Shown: one piece after another, positions 5,447-34,554 of the stretch
How positions within the stretch are numbered: the stretch's first letter is position 1
How the letters are laid out: each line of letters begins with the position of its first letter
Assembly (NCBI GenBank): GCA_001831095.1
Contig: MIDP01000035.1
Coordinates: 1-35,796, forward strand
Length of the DNA stretch: 35,796 bases
From: Verrucomicrobia bacterium GWF2_51_19
Lineage (GTDB): Bacteria; Verrucomicrobiota; Verrucomicrobiia; Opitutales; UBA12508
Reading direction: 5' to 3'
Position numbers and translations under genes: made by a program
The notes under the pieces: generated by a model
Told to the model about the DNA's origin: nothing
The model's database searches: none
Seen by the model: the letters and a program-made list of their open reading frames with translations, nothing else

Positions 5447-5582
5447 TTAAATGGCAGCAGAGAAAGGGTGTCAAAACTTGGCTTTGCGCGAGTACGATCT
5501 GCCGTAGCGTACATAGACGTACGTGAGGCAGTCGGCGGAGCGCAAAACGAGTTTTCACGCCCTTTCTCTGCTGCCATTTAAA
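5447..5582 (+). repeat. Family B hairpin element B1 at the mlaD stop codon
   Basis: The outer arms begin TTAAATGGCAGCAGAG and continue through AAAGGG. They pair with the mirror sequence ending at 5582, with a few mismatches near the core. The B core runs from CTTTGCGCGAG to GGAGCGCAAAACG with the apex CGTAC-ataga-CGTACGTGA. The mlaD stop codon lies in the right arm. The GCGAAACG-type side faces mlaD. Confidence 0.9.
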
Positions 5583-12754: not shown

Positions 12755-12871
12755 AAGAACCGTGCAAAATGGCCCACGGCGTTTCGCGTCGTTCTGGCTA
12801 AGTCACGTACCAACGTACGCGGTGGCCATCGCTCCTCGGGCCTGGCTATAGAACCATTTTGCCCAGTTCTT
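12755..12871 (-). repeat. Family A hairpin element A4 before the MBL hydrolase start
   Basis: The arms AAGAACCGTGCAAAATGG and CCATTTTGCCCAGTTCTT pair imperfectly. The core is a diverged A core (TTTCGCGTCGTTCTGG in place of TTCTCGTCGTTCGGG). The apex CGTAC-caa-CGTACG is kept. The GGCGTT side faces the start codon, 5 nt away. Confidence 0.85.
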
Positions 12872-12923: not shown

Positions 12924-13054
12924 AAAAAACTTATGATAAAGGGCGTCAAAGCTTGGCTTTGCGCGAGCACGATCGGCCGTAGCGTACACAGACGTACGTG
13001 AGGCCGGCGGCGGAGCGCGAAACAAGCTTTCACACCCTTTATCATAAGTTTTTT
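12924..13054 (+). repeat. Family B hairpin element B2 at the omp stop codon
   Basis: The outer arm AAAAAACTTATGATAAAGGG pairs perfectly with the sequence ending at 13054, then continues with one-base mismatches to AAGCTT. The B core apex is CGTAC-acaga-CGTACGTGA. The right arm overlaps the omp stop (13053-13055). The interval 12751-13052 holds only A4, B2 and about 50 bases of AT-rich sequence between them. Confidence 0.9.
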
Positions 13055-13697: not shown

Positions 13698-13819
13698 AAG
13701 ACCATTGCAAAATGTTCTCTAGCGGCGTTCTCGTCGTTCGGGCTAAGTCACGTACCAACGTACGCTCCTGTCGCCCTCGCTCCTCGGGCCTTGCTATAGA
13801 GCCATTTTTCAACGGTCTT
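13698..13819 (-). repeat. Family A hairpin element A5 before the omp start
   Basis: The arms AAGACCATTGCAAAATG and CATTTTTCAACGGTCTT pair with a few mismatches around a full A core with apex CGTAC-caa-CGTACG. The GGCGTTCTCG side faces the omp start, 9 nt away. The stretch 13689-14072 holds this element, B3, a degenerate arm at 14050 and no gene. Confidence 0.88.
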
Positions 13820-16661: not shown

Positions 16662-16788
16662 GAAAGACTGATCAGAAAGGATGTCAAAACTTGGCTTTGC
16701 GCGAGCACGATTGCCGTAGCGTACATAGACCGCGGGCAGTCAGCGGAGCGCGAAACGAGTTTTCACATCCTTTATCATCAGTCTTTCA
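16662..16788 (+). repeat. Family B hairpin element B5 at the MCP stop codon
   Basis: The arms GAAAGACTGATCAGAAAGGA and TCCTTTATCATCAGTCTTTC pair with two mismatches. The B core is present, but its right apex half is replaced by GACCGCGGGCAG, so the GTAC apex pairing is lost here. The right arm overlaps the MCP stop codon. The GCGCGAAACG side faces the gene. Confidence 0.87.
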
Positions 16789-19566: not shown

Positions 19567-21270
19567 TTAAGACCCGTGTAGAGACCTCAGCGCCTCACTG
19601 ACCATTGAAGCAGTCAATAGTTCTGGTAAAATCAACGGAGGTCGTTGCCTGTGAGGGAAATAGAGCACGTATGTCGGCACTCCATTGCGGCCCAAAGCAT
19701 TCAAGGCCCTAGTGATGTGTTCATCCCGCCGAGTCCAATCAGCACGCATTAAGAGCACTTTTTTCTGTTCAAACAGGGCTAAAACTTGTGGATCTTGCAA
19801 TGTTGTCCTCTTATTGACTTGGCATGTCAGGCACCACGACGCCGTAAAATCGACAAATACCGGCCGCCCCTCTGCCTGCGCCTGTTCTATTTTTTCGACA
19901 TCGAAGGGCTGCCAAACGTCTAATTTTGGGCTCGATGACTCTGTAAAAACCAGCAACAGTGCGACAATGATAGCCATGATCGCCAAAAACTTCAGCCAAT
20001 GGCTCGACCGACGATAGGCCCAAACGGCAAAGCTGATGACAAGCAGCCCCAAAAGCACGGGAATCACAGACACGCCCTGTTCACTCAGGACCCAGAGCAG
20101 CCAAATCACCGTAGCGAGGACGGGAAAGGCCAAAAATTGCTTTAAGGTCTCCATCCATGGCCCTGGTCTCGGCAACAGTCTTAATCCAGATGGGAAGAGA
20201 CTCAGCAACACATAGGGCAGCGCCATACCTAAGGCCAGACATGTAAAAATGAGAAAGGGCAACCATCCCGTATAAAAAAAGGCCGCGCCCAACGCGACAC
20301 CCATAAAAGGAGCTGTACACGGCGTCGCAATGAGCGTCGCGAGGCAACCTGACAGAAAAGATCCCAAAATGCCAGATGAGCCCCGCCCACTCCAAGCAAC
20401 ATTCACCTCTAAAAAGCCCAAAAAGTTCAGCCCTATCAAAAAGAACAGTACCACGAGCACACAGAGAAAGGGCGTCGATTGTAGTTGGAAACCCCAGCCC
20501 AGCTGCAAGCCCCATTGCCGCAAAAGGACCAAAACGCCGGCCAGCACAATAAAGGAGAGCCATATCCCCGCCGCAAAGGCGCCCGCATGAACGCGTACAG
20601 ACTGTCTCCCCTTCGACGCCACGTCTATCAGCGAAACAATCTTGATACCGATCAGCGGAAAGACACACGGCATGGCATTGAGCAGCAACCCTCCCAGAAA
20701 GGCCATTAAAAGGGTCATCCATGGCAGGTTCTGCGTTATTGGCTCTTCTTTTAACAATTCGCCATTGCTGGCACCACGAATCTCAATCTCTGCCGAGCCT
20801 GGAACGCAACTCTCCTTGCAAGCAAGCCAAGTAACAGTCGCCGAAAAGTCAGGTGCCGGCTTTGGCGCGCTGAACTTAGCTTTGACGACACATTGTTTTG
20901 CATAAACACGCGTCATAAGCCCCGCCTCACGCTCCACTTGAGGATCCGGCCAACTTTCACTCAACAGGGTAACGGTTGCCGGCAGGTGCCATTGTATGGC
21001 AGTTGAAAGACCCGTATCGCCAGGCGGGTTCGCGTAAATGTGCCAACCCTCTTCCATGTTCAAATGAACATCGACAGTGAGTGGATCGCCGTGCTGCGCC
21101 GACCAAGAAACGTCTACAGGAGCTCCAAAAGCAGCAACACTTGCGAAAAGAACTAGCCAAGACCGGCGTAAAATGGCGCCAAAATGCGTTTCGCGCTCCT
21201 TGAGGTGCCTCACGTACCATCGTACGCTACGGCAGATCGTACTCGCGCAAAGCCACATTTTTGCATCCAT
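19567..21270 (-). CDS. dsbD: Thiol:disulfide interchange protein DsbD, N-terminus read from a repeat element
   Basis: This protein has up to 567 residues. The N-terminal periplasmic domain has paired Cys in TWLACKESCVPG. About eight membrane helices include the redox cysteines of MPCVFPLIGIK and ATPCTAPFMG. The C-terminal thioredoxin domain has C480-LT-C483. DsbD passes electrons from cytoplasmic thioredoxin to periplasmic thiols, including cytochrome c maturation. The first ~36 residues are translated from element B7. The first in-frame ATGs (21270 and 21258) and a GTG at 21213 all lie inside the element, and no native start remains before the hydrophobic core WLVLFASVAAFGA. The stop is beside AAGACCCGTGTA, a possible arm remnant. 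Confidence 0.87.
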   Translation of the reverse strand: MDAKMWLCASTICRSVRWYVRHLKERETHFGAILRRSWLVLFASVAAFGAPVDVSWSAQHGDPLTVDVHLNMEEGWHIYANPPGDTGLSTAIQWHLPATVTLLSESWPDPQVEREAGLMTRVYAKQCVVKAKFSAPKPAPDFSATVTWLACKESCVPGSAEIEIRGASNGELLKEEPITQNLPWMTLLMAFLGGLLLNAMPCVFPLIGIKIVSLIDVASKGRQSVRVHAGAFAAGIWLSFIVLAGVLVLLRQWGLQLGWGFQLQSTPFLCVLVVLFFLIGLNFLGFLEVNVAWSGRGSSGILGSFLSGCLATLIATPCTAPFMGVALGAAFFYTGWLPFLIFTCLALGMALPYVLLSLFPSGLRLLPRPGPWMETLKQFLAFPVLATVIWLLWVLSEQGVSVIPVLLGLLVISFAVWAYRRSSHWLKFLAIMAIIVALLLVFTESSSPKLDVWQPFDVEKIEQAQAEGRPVFVDFTASWCLTCQVNKRTTLQDPQVLALFEQKKVLLMRADWTRRDEHITRALNALGRNGVPTYVLYFPHRQRPPLILPELLTASMVSEALRSLHGS

Positions 21271-21284
21271 TTTACGCCGGTCTT
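21159..21284 (-). repeat. Family B hairpin element B7 fused to the dsbD start
   Basis: AAGACCGGCGTAAAATGG pairs perfectly with CCATTTTACGCCGGTCTT. The B core has apex CGTAC-catc-GTACG. It begins 20 nt after the fkpA-like stop and its GCGTTTCGCGCTCC side faces dsbD. Its full length is open in the dsbD frame. Confidence 0.88.
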
Positions 21285-21303
21285 TAATCCACCTAGAGCC
21301 TGT

Positions 21304-22269
21304 TTATTTCTTCTCTACAGGCTTAGCTTTTTCGTTTACTGGCGCAGTAACGGGTGTTTTTTCTTTGGCTGACTCAACGACGGGTGCTTTCTCTACCGTC
21401 GGAGCTGCCTCAGGCTGTGGCTTAATCGCCTGAACATCAACGAGTTCCACATTGAATATCAGGGTCGATCCAGCTGGAATACTCGGCAACTTGCTGTCGC
21501 CGTAAGCCAAATCGGCCGGAATGTAAATCTTTGCCTTGCCACCCTTCTTCATCAGGCTGAGGCCTTCCTTGAACCCGGGAATAACAAAGTTGAGACGAAA
21601 GGTCGCCGGCTGGCCACGAGCAATGGAGCTGTCAAAGACTTTTCCATCGATCAGACTGCCTTCGTAATGGACCGTCAGGAGGTCTTTTTCTGTGGGTGTC
21701 GCTCCAGTACCCTCTGTGATAACTTCGTAAAATAGGCCGCTGTCGGTCTTCTTAACTTTGGCATTTTTGGCCAAATTATCTAAAAAAGCCTGTCCTTTTT
21801 CGCGCTGAACCTTCGCCTCTACAGCCACTTTCTCTTCCTTGATCTTGGCATAGGCGTCAGCTTTCTTTTGAATGTAATCTTGCATCTGCGGACCTACAAC
21901 GGCGAGGTCAAATGTTAACTCTTCTTCCTTGGCCGCCTTTTTGATGCCATCGATAAAGGATGCTATCTCGGCATCACTCAGGGCCAAGTCGGACAAGCCG
22001 GCCGCGCGCGTACCGATCATCCAACCGTACATTTCCATGCAGGCCTTGACGTCTACATCCTTTGCGATCTCGATAACAGCAACCTTTTCCTCGACGACCA
22101 CTTTGGGCGCGTCTGCGGACTTAACAGCTGCATCTTTAGAAGCAACGGATTCCGTCGACTTCGCGTTCTCGTTGACAGCAGGTGTCTTAGACGCCTGCAC
22201 GTTTTTACTCTCTGCGCCGCAGCCAGAGGCAACACATACACACAGTATGCTCAAGATTGACTTTTTCAT
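21304..22269 (-). CDS. FKBP-type peptidyl-prolyl isomerase lipoprotein, FkpA/Mip-like
   Basis: This 321-residue protein has a signal peptide with a possible lipobox ending at Cys17 (VASGC). A low-complexity Ala/Lys/Val/Glu stretch runs to about 65, then an FKBP_N helical dimerisation region to about 165. The FKBP domain lies near 170-260 (LLTVHYEGSLIDGKVFDSS, FVIPGFKEGL, IPADLAYGD, STLIFNVELVDV). A Pro/Lys/Glu/Ala-rich tail ends KPVEKK. It is probably an outer-membrane-anchored folding helper for exported proteins; Mip homologues aid host-cell infection in some intracellular bacteria. dsbD follows 34 nt after the stop, across element B7. Confidence 0.88.
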   Translation of the reverse strand: MKKSILSILCVCVASGCGAESKNVQASKTPAVNENAKSTESVASKDAAVKSADAPKVVVEEKVAVIEIAKDVDVKACMEMYGWMIGTRAAGLSDLALSDAEIASFIDGIKKAAKEEELTFDLAVVGPQMQDYIQKKADAYAKIKEEKVAVEAKVQREKGQAFLDNLAKNAKVKKTDSGLFYEVITEGTGATPTEKDLLTVHYEGSLIDGKVFDSSIARGQPATFRLNFVIPGFKEGLSLMKKGGKAKIYIPADLAYGDSKLPSIPAGSTLIFNVELVDVQAIKPQPEAAPTVEKAPVVESAKEKTPVTAPVNEKAKPVEKK

Positions 22270-23898: not shown

Positions 23899-24008
23899 TG
23901 TTGTTCAGACTAGGTCAACTACGTAAGTAGACTCCTGTCGCTCTTTGGCTTATCCAGAAAACAATTTGTCATCGGCCTTAGGTCTGTTGGTATTCATTTA
24001 GTTAGATT

Positions 24009-24138
24009 AAAGACCCGTGTAAAATGGATGCAAAAATGTGGCTTTGCGCGAGCACGATCTGCCGTAGCGTACATAGACGTACGTGAGGCAGTCGACGGAG
24101 CGCGAAACGCATTTTGGCGCCATTTTGCACGGGTCTTT
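24009..24138 (+). repeat. Family B hairpin element B9 upstream of flagellin
   Basis: AAAGACCCGTGTAAAATGG pairs with CCATTTTGCACGGGTCTTT (one mismatch). The B core is a good consensus copy with apex CGTAC-ataga-CGTACGTGA. The GCGCGAAACG side faces flagellin, 157 nt away. The tRNA gene lies on the other side, reading away. The rest of 23729-24294 shows no gene besides the tRNA. Confidence 0.9.
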
Positions 24139-28601: not shown

Positions 28602-28754
28602 GCTGTAAAAAAACAAGATATTGAAATGGATTTATCGCTGTTTTTAGATAAAATACTCGCTTATAGTATTTTTATAAAAAGTCAAGCTTTTCCGTGATTT
28701 TTTTGCGCTGAGGCATAACTGGTCTTGGCGCGCAATCAAGAACAATCTCGATTT

Positions 28755-28910
28755 CCGCATACTGAGCTGCATCCAGCTTATACGCTAAGACTAGACGGCT
28801 TTGTTACCGCATATTAGGCCGCAGCTAGCTTATGCGCTATATTTAAACGGCTTTATCCCCGTGTACTGGGCTGCAGCTAGCTTATGCGCTAAGGCTCGAC
28901 GTCTTTGATA
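28755..28910 (+). repeat. Three 52-bp tandem repeats
   Basis: Units start at 28755, 28807 and 28859 with CCGCATACTG-, CCGCATATTA- and CCGTGTACTG-like sequence. All contain AGCTTATRCGCTA and an ACGGCTTT or ACGTCTTT end. The period is exactly 52. A decayed fourth unit may begin at 28911. The units are contiguous, so this is not a CRISPR. Confidence 0.8.
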
Positions 28911-33228: not shown

Positions 33229-33356
33229 TAAAGGGGGTCCAAAGGGTGTGAAAACTCGTTTCGCGCTCCGCCGACTGCCTCACGTACCACCGTACGCTAC
33301 GGCAGGTCGTGCTTCGCGCAAAGCCAAGTTTTGACGCCCTTTGGACCCCCTTTATT
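33227..33356 (-). repeat. Family B hairpin element B11 at the rpmB stop codon
   Basis: AATAAAGGGGGTCCAAAGGG pairs perfectly with the sequence ending at 33356. The outer, G-rich half is specific to this locus and looks like a classical terminator stem. The B core (apex CGTAC-cac-CGTACG) sits inside. The ACTCGTTTCGCGC side faces rpmB, whose stop codon overlaps the arm. Confidence 0.92.
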
Positions 33357-33381: not shown

Positions 33382-34452
33382 ATGACTAAAGCAACGCCAA
33401 CTCCAGAGCGCGATGTCCCAAAGGGCCCGCTGGCCAGGCCCGAGGAACGAGGGCGACAGGAGCCTACTGACGTAGGTGACTTAGCCCGAACGACGAGAAC
33501 GCCGCCAGCGGGCCCTTTGGGACATCGCGCAAAATGTGGGGTGGTGGGAGTGGGCTACTTGGGCCAGCACCACGCGAGGATTTACAGCCAGCTTGCAAAC
33601 TGCGAGTTGGTCGGCGTTTACGATGTCAATCCAACGGCCGCCGCGACTGTCGCCGAGGCCTACAAGACACAAGTGTTTCCATCGATCGAGGCCCTCGCCG
33701 AAGCCTGTGATGCCGTCAGCGTAGTTGTCCCGACCGACAAGCACTGCGATGTCGCCCTGCAGTTGTTTGAGAAAAAATGCCACCTGCTGATCGAAAAGCC
33801 CTTGTGCGTCTCTCTCGAAGAAGCAGAAAGGATTTTAGAGGCCTCTAAACGCAACCAGTGTATTGTGCAAGTGGGTCATATTGAGCACTTTAATCCCGTT
33901 ATGGCGTTTTTGGAGCAGGCTGTCGAGAGTCCACGCTATATCGTAGCCGATCGCCTCGCGCCCTTCAATCCGCGCGGGACCGAGGTTGGCGTCGTCCTGG
34001 ACCTCATGATTCACGATATCGGTATTATTTTGCAACTCGTCCGGTCGCCCGTCAATCGCGTTGAGTCCATCGGCGTCAACGTACTCTCGGCGCACGACGA
34101 AGATATCGCCAACGCCCGTATCGTCTTTGAAAATGGTTGCATCGCCAACCTCAATACCAGCCGCGTCAGCCTCAAGAAAGTTCGCGAAATCCGCATTTTT
34201 CAACAAAACGCCTACCTGTCTCTCGACTTTATGAACCAGGTTGGCCATCTGTTGCGCAAACAGGCCGGCACGCTTCACAAAGAAGACATCCCCATTGAAA
34301 AAGGCGAACCACTCGCCCTCGAACTCGCCTCGTTCGTCGACTGTGTCCAACATCACAAGACTCCCAAAGTCAACACCGACCTCGGCCGTACCGCCCTGGC
34401 GCTGGCCATCGAGATCACCAGCCAAATCCAAGACCTATGCAAAATATCGTGA
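33382..34452 (+). CDS. Gfo/Idh/MocA-family oxidoreductase with an in-frame hairpin element near its N-terminus
   Basis: This 356-residue NAD(P)-dependent sugar dehydrogenase starts at ATG 33382. The Rossmann motif GVGYLG lies only at residues 56-61; family members usually begin it within ~10 residues. Residues 10-50 (LARPEERGRQEPTDVGDLAR and flanks) are encoded by element A8. The catalytic EKP is at 138-140, and GHIEHFNP and DLMIHD follow. The latter pattern resembles UDP-GlcNAc 3-dehydrogenase (GnnA) and WbpB-like enzymes, suggesting lipid A or surface-sugar synthesis, but the substrate is not proven. An alternative start is the TTG at residue 46. The last six codons and the stop lie in the arm of element B12. 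Confidence 0.87.
   Translation: MTKATPTPERDVPKGPLARPEERGRQEPTDVGDLARTTRTPPAGPLGHRAKCGVVGVGYLGQHHARIYSQLANCELVGVYDVNPTAAATVAEAYKTQVFPSIEALAEACDAVSVVVPTDKHCDVALQLFEKKCHLLIEKPLCVSLEEAERILEASKRNQCIVQVGHIEHFNPVMAFLEQAVESPRYIVADRLAPFNPRGTEVGVVLDLMIHDIGIILQLVRSPVNRVESIGVNVLSAHDEDIANARIVFENGCIANLNTSRVSLKKVREIRIFQQNAYLSLDFMNQVGHLLRKQAGTLHKEDIPIEKGEPLALELASFVDCVQHHKTPKVNTDLGRTALALAIEITSQIQDLCKIS
33408..33530 (+). repeat. Family A hairpin element A8 inside a coding region
   Basis: The left arm starts GCGCGATGTCCCAAAGGG and continues CCCGCTGG; it pairs perfectly over 26 bases with the right arm ending GACATCGCGC. In the core, the apex is CCTAC-tgac-GTAGG, a paired change from CGTAC/GTACG. All 123 bases (41 codons) are open in the gene's frame. 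The GAACGCCGCC side faces the Rossmann domain. Confidence 0.93.
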
Positions 34453-34554
34453 AAGCTCGTTTCGCGCTCCGCCGCCTACCTCACGTACCATCGTACGCTA
34501 CGGTAGCTTGTGCTCGCGCAAAGCCAAGCTTTGACGGTATTTTGCATAGGTCTT
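34431..34554 (-). repeat. Family B hairpin element B12 at the gfo stop codon
   Basis: AAGACCTATGCAAAATATCG pairs with CGGTATTTTGCATAGGTCTT (near perfect). The arm is the same class as in B3, so it belongs to the element, yet it encodes the last residues (DLCKIS) and stop of the Gfo/Idh protein. The B core apex is CGTAC-catc-GTACG. The CTCGTTTCGCGC side faces the gene. Confidence 0.92.

Follow-up and report, generated by a model that had tools for sequence, protein, structure and literature searches.

The GTAG and CGTC REPs are high-copy palindromes that are mostly intergenic and often lie <20 bp from the 3' end of an ORF (PMC3733652). The ends of GTAG REPs often provide a TAG stop codon, and some REPs are located at the NH2 terminus of an ORF; in some REP-rich genomes most of these N-terminal cases are thought to be non-coding because translation can start downstream (PMC3733652). 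The verrucomicrobium Opitutus terrae is rich in such REPs (PMC3733652). Among Rickettsia palindromic elements (RPEs), RPE-1 copies at protein NH2 termini in R. conorii are reported to be expressed in vivo (PMC3733652), and RPEs form in-frame fusions with host proteins (PMC10969869). In pneumococcus, SPRITE hairpins are enriched near CDS 3' ends and are proposed to be co-opted terminators, and large BOX elements may hold expressed ORFs with a start codon borne on the repeat (PMC3049150). Mycobacterial MIRUs occupy the space between one gene's stop and the next gene's start in operons; rnc and fpg are 279-358 bp apart where the repeats are present and a few bp apart where they are absent, and the repeats end at the fpg start codon (PMC2734929).

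The window analyzed here is a 35,796-nt stretch of contig MIDP01000035.1 of Verrucomicrobia bacterium GWF2_51_19. A long palindrome, called B7, separates dsbD from the gene upstream of it. The features of this junction are as follows.

19567-21270, minus strand: dsbD, an intact ORF with DsbD_N, DsbD_TM and thioredoxin-like domains
21121-21159, minus strand: hydrophobic core WLVLFASVAAFGA of the DsbD signal peptide, directly outside B7 and sharing its first base with it
21159-21284, plus strand: B7, a palindromic element of family A, whose left end AAGACC at 21159 faces dsbD and whose right end at 21284 faces fkpA
21211-21213, minus strand: GTG, a candidate start for dsbD that lies 55 nt from B7's left end and is kept in 48/81 family-A copies
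21256-21258, minus strand: ATG, second candidate dsbD start, inside B7
21268-21270, minus strand: ATG, candidate dsbD start within the basal stem of the hairpin
21285-21298, plus strand: B7 tail TTAATCCACCTAGA, which shares its first T with the arm end; it holds AGGTGG (minus strand, 21290-21295) and is homologous to the family form of the tail, TTAATCTAACTA(A/G)A
21304-22269, minus strand: fkpA-like gene for an FKBP peptidyl-prolyl isomerase (FKBP domain), upstream of dsbD; its stop at 21304-21306 also bounds the dsbD frame

The minus strand runs from the fkpA TAA (21304-21306) through ACAGGCTCTAGGTGGATTA and B7 into the DsbD core WLVLFASVAAFGA. The dsbD frame reads ...KMDAKMWLCASTICRSVRWYVRHLKERETHFGAILRRS/WLVLFASVAAFGAPVDV (the slash marks the junction), the peptide encoded by B7 in this frame includes VRHLKERETHFGAILRRS, and the frame stays open through the element and continues back to the in-frame TAA of fkpA. 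No ATG, GTG or TTG occurs in the dsbD frame from the end of the element to the end of the core, and the next in-frame starts past B7, TTG +95 and ATG +101, are both within the mature domain. The only codons preceding the core that could initiate are ATG 21270, ATG 21258 and GTG 21213, all inside B7; the initial annotation, which had placed the first usable starts within the element, named 21270 and 21213. The basic n-region ending in ILRRS is encoded by the B7 arm, as had also been claimed, and this peptide is generic to family A. The sequence supports the conclusion that B7 is the only possible source of both the initiation codon and the basic n-region in the DsbD signal peptide. The hexamer coding signal of dsbD begins only downstream of the element.

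Comparison genomes were from the same order only, and the source genome is the sole species of its family among them. The relatives lacking B7 are thus distant, and the same N-terminal peptide is absent from all of those compared, which leaves the proposed origin of the DsbD N terminus standing. Their dsbD genes begin 2-4 residues ahead of the hydrophobic core, for example with MRIFLFFILSAAACFAS or MKRLLFILFLSIFSTFLYSA, and no FKBP gene was found beside dsbD in these relatives. The preferred reading, to which a probability of about 0.7 is assigned, has B7 taking the place of dsbD's first codons, so that the arm gives the start and the n-region while the core and the mature protein are dsbD's own.

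B7 is a near-perfect palindrome of 126 bp. The predicted RNA fold has a free energy of -73 kcal/mol over 151 nt (z = -7.3), a stability that none of 200 shuffled sequences equaled, and the DNA fold has z = -6.4. No Rfam family matches the element. It shares full-length sequence with the other family-A copies, carries the AAGACC/GGTCTT ends and has covarying arms, and its sequence thereby shows it to be a family member. Its placement departs from that usual for the family: B7 is reversed, with its left end at the dsbD start and 19 nt between its right end and the stop of fkpA. The draft genome is in 43 contigs, palindromes are difficult to assemble, and one copy elsewhere in the draft (L140) contains N; a palindrome misplaced or collapsed during assembly could have left the native dsbD start off the contig. 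This artefact is very unlikely: B7 is distinct from every other copy (87-88% identity over 126 nt to the best of them), its two arms agree with one another, and junctions of this type are present at several other loci.

The draft is a reduced genome of 1.26 Mb, ~92% complete and probably of the order Opitutales, in which 16S was not found; we take Opitutus terrae to belong to the same order. A search of this genome with the pattern AAGACCNNNGNAAAATGG returned at least 104 motif-bearing arms (49 forward and 55 reverse), compared with 0 and 1 for the reversed-pattern control. None of 372 other genomes of the order contains a copy of B7 at E<=1e-6. Elements were surveyed in 398 kb made up of 71 stretches, the window and 70 others; these were picked around element matches, so the counts describe elements rather than every gene boundary. 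Genes were called with a rough hexamer gene caller, and full copies were scored with two profiles. The profiles identified 148 full copies, 82 of family A (the B7 type) and 66 of family B, which has outer arms in common with A and a different core. The palindromes of the high-copy family are 120-128 bp long, and an alignment of 39 family-A copies has a mean column identity of 85%.

The two families occupy different ends of genes. Family-A left ends lie <=4 nt from a stop codon or overlap it in 52 of the 61 copies that have a left gene on the same strand, with 3.4 expected for uniform placement in the gap, whereas family-A right ends show no such hugging (1/32, 2.2 expected). Family-B left ends are beside gene 5' ends in 45 of the 64 copies with a left neighbor. 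The order stop / A> / about 27-31 nt / <B / start is frequent. By the rough gene call at most 2 of the 148 copies lie inside ORFs, and all others are located at a gene boundary or close to one. Few A copies in this survey occupy a B position, and B7 is among them; of the 68 copies in the first set, it alone has its right end within 30 nt of a gene 3' end.

Genome-wide, family-A palindromes abut stop codons exactly, often with TA/A over the junction; examples in the window are 5450-5577, 12926-13052, 16663-16785, 33229-33355 and 34430-34554. Others overlap the gene, by 13, 18 and 23 nt, and provide its final 4-7 codons along with the stop. Family-B ends lie 3-15 nt ahead of start codons with no space for a separate ribosome site (12755-12870 and 13698-13818 in the window; L120, L125, L162, L170, L173, L188 and L194 elsewhere). 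Frequently an A and a B copy are joined into a single unit by a spacer of about 27-31 nt.

Start donation recurs in the genome: the usable start is located inside an element in at least five further genes besides dsbD. One of these is in the same window.

33409-33529, minus strand: family-B element; the Gfo/Idh dehydrogenase ORF at 33517-34452 has its only suitable start, TTG 33517, in the arm of this element

In three cases the Pfam profile starts, at position 1-2, at or adjoining the element boundary. Profile position 2 falls at residue 6 of the Gfo/Idh dehydrogenase, of which the element encodes residues 1-5, and at residue 16 of an FAD oxidoreductase (L176; element residues 1-16); position 1 falls at residue 6 of a hydrolase (L158; element residues 1-5). 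The remaining two are prepilin-like ORFs. The L194 ORF has a GTG at -55, the same family GTG as in dsbD, followed by AG/FSLIELIVVIG, and the L181 ORF reads ...LRRSF/AFTLLEMTVVLGI. Neither has a Pfam match, so the prepilin-like label refers to the visible motif. Including dsbD, 3/6 of the start-donation cases are for exported or prepilin-type proteins. Most other element-adjoining genes have an ATG 3-15 nt past the element, which makes start donation a minority outcome. At L144 a divergent family-A element (621-748) lies between an apparent tRNA 3' end (the left flank ends in CCCCCCTTCAGCACCA) and ftsZ (747-1949), and the last bases of the element offer GTG/TTG in the ftsZ frame. This gene was kept off the list since translation could instead begin at a TTG located 48 nt downstream.

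B7 is not alone in offering an in-frame start. An ATG or GTG in an open frame occurs in 219 of 342 combinations (64%) of copy, orientation and phase among family-A copies. The GTG 55 nt from the left end is present in 48 of 81 copies, and in 45 of these no stop follows before the end, giving VRQSAERETHFGAILHRS-like peptides. Because such starts are common in the family arms, B7 required no special change to act as one, and an open frame by itself is weak evidence of selection. The same frequency lends some weight to the alternative that dsbD lost its start when the element arrived, in which case the open frame is chance and the gene is silent or yields a signal-less product from TTG +95 or ATG +101; the hairpin would also hinder initiation. 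This alternative is unlikely. The remainder of dsbD is an intact run of 500 codons with all domains and a coding signal, the arm puts basic residues right ahead of the core, and the same arrangement is found in five other intact ORFs.

The initial annotation had also proposed that B7 split dsbD's own ribosome site, AGGTGG, from the coding region. The motif is indeed across the element, at 21290-21295 on the minus strand and past B7 as drawn, but it is probably tail DNA of the element. Repeat I5 aligns 21222-21295 with an inverted copy at 23999-24072 at 93%, extending past the palindrome and across AGGTGG. The tail TTAATCTAACTA(A/G)ATGAATACC trails several copies, and GGTCTT plus tail occurs at 11 places with <=3 mismatches, compared with 0 for the reversed control; AGGTGG of B7 corresponds to AGTTAG in the family form. 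This homology to the tails of other copies indicates that AGGTGG is probably element DNA, and the candidate was rejected as the old ribosome site of dsbD. SD motifs are weakly enriched in this genome and SD use is weak: an SD-like 4-mer is found ahead of 40 of the 166 starts that are away from elements (shuffling predicts 26) and of 7 of the 28 that are near one (2.9 predicted), and most genes therefore manage without one. Given the tail homology, the 18-nt distance to the closest in-frame ATG (21270) and the weak SD use, AGGTGG is poor evidence for a split ribosome site, and that part of the proposal was dropped. AAGGAG at 21201-21196 in B7 was considered as a newly evolved SD and rejected; the only well-spaced in-frame codon is ACG, and the variant also occurs in L133, L138 and L184 and is thus not specific to B7.

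AGGTGG also bears on whether dsbD is initiated outside B7, either at a rare codon beside the element, such as the ATT in AGGTGGATT, or by read-through of the fkpA TAA to give a FkpA-DsbD fusion. The dsbD frame is continuous to that stop and AGGTGG immediately precedes the ATT; there is, however, zero spacer between them, the motif is tail-derived and TAA is an efficient stop. Both routes require unusual mechanisms, and an outside start is the least probable of the explanations weighed here.

Among the starts inside B7, which the replacement reading requires, GTG 21213 is slightly favored over ATG 21270 or 21258, because L194 has this GTG as its closest start within the element and because the ATGs fall in the basal stem or close to it. 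All three candidates are within the very stable hairpin, and none has a well-placed SD. The replacement may have occurred as follows. High-copy palindromes of 120-128 bp would have spread across the gene boundaries of this genome, and B7 would have settled between fkpA and dsbD opposite to the usual orientation of the family, with its tail towards the fkpA stop. The first codons of dsbD were presumably lost during this event or later. Insertion into an intact gene would leave the original dsbD start on the upstream side of B7, where no such start is present, which points to an added loss at the dsbD-side junction; with a comparison set of distant relatives, the loss is deduced rather than seen at an empty site. 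In the dsbD phase the arm encodes an open basic peptide (VR..ERETHFGAILRRS) that may have been good enough as a start and n-region to keep the gene alive. The arm would then give the n-region of a Sec signal peptide, with the hydrophobic core and the mature protein still derived from dsbD, and the protein is probably expressed and exported. As for many genes of this genome, no good Shine-Dalgarno sequence would direct initiation; ribosomes re-initiating after the fkpA stop, which lies about 34 nt ahead of ATG 21270, may contribute.

Changes in the arms are nearly always two-sided. In the 39-copy alignment, column pair 8/128 has 17 A-U, 13 G-C, 5 U-A, 2 C-G and one G-U, the ten outermost pairs have 0-1 one-sided changes each, and double compensating changes are present at 17 of 38 pairs. 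The arms of one copy match each other at 11.0 of 12 bases, compared with 7.6 between different copies. Inspection of the same alignment (A1) shows outer arms that vary among copies and are complementary within each, with nearly no G-U or one-sided intermediates. The scarcity of G-U intermediates suggests that the arms are kept the same at the DNA level, one arm being copied from the other, and not by slow RNA-level compensation. The elements share some attributes of MITEs: they are short, need no ORF to move and have terminal inverted repeats. Of 68 copies, 12 have TA at the left end, 15 at the right and 6 at both (genome TA frequency 0.035), and B7 has TA on the tail side only; these flanks are only partly consistent with target duplication. 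A search of the ~92% complete genome for the Y1/RAYT transposase (PF01797) gave 0 matches with positive controls, and searches for DDE_3 and DDE_Tnp_1 transposases (PF13358, PF01609) also gave 0.

Three other features were noted in the window. A single ORF at 340-1650 matches PTS IIA in its N-terminal part and the diadenylate cyclase DacZ in its C-terminal part, a possible PTS-linked c-di-AMP synthase fusion. A murE-like ORF at 31427-32650 matches family profiles only from about position 86-106, and its N-terminal domain is missing or its start misplaced. Three 52-bp tandem repeats at 28752-28907 are unrelated to the palindromes by inspection.

A broader interpretation is offered tentatively, as one that may well prove wrong. 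A two-part palindromic system, with A at stops, B at starts, shared outer arms and often a 27-31-nt spacer, may have colonized gene boundaries so tightly that many genes take their stop codon from it and several their sole start codon and the front of the leader, the repeats thus serving as the translation start regions of native genes. As part of this interpretation, and equally tentatively, the ILRRS-type basic arm peptide could be a workable n-region for exported or prepilin-type proteins. Repeats that replace gene starts and the front of an export signal, several times in one genome and with no alternative start downstream, would illustrate how a shrinking genome can recruit selfish or structural DNA for translation initiation. 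Automatic annotation is liable to misplace the starts of such genes, and the arrangement raises the testable question of whether initiation can occur within a very stable hairpin without a Shine-Dalgarno sequence.

That palindromic repeats lend genes stop codons and internal peptides is already known; new here is the apparent replacement of a start, with no downstream alternative, recurrently in one genome and in genes that include those for exported or prepilin-type proteins. The B7 family resembles REPs in being high-copy palindromes that hug gene 3' ends. It differs in size (~126 bp for B7, 20-40 bp for REPs), in its AAGACC/GGTCTT ends in place of a GTAG or CGTC tag and in the lack of a Y1 transposase match in this genome, and dsbD has no downstream start, unlike the N-terminal REPs for which that option exists. 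The pneumococcal SPRITE, BOX and RUP repeats were compared by description, and the passages of PMC3049150 considered here describe neither a 5' partner family nor exact abutment to stops. MIRUs are direct tandem repeats, in contrast to the long palindromes here. With RPEs the family shares palindromes of about 100-150 bp, a peptide that appears to be fused in frame to host proteins, and a reduced genome. RPEs are commonly within ORFs, whereas here the element-encoded peptide is retained at 6 gene starts and at most 2/148 copies are inside ORFs; an RPE adds an internal insert, and B7 appears to replace the start.
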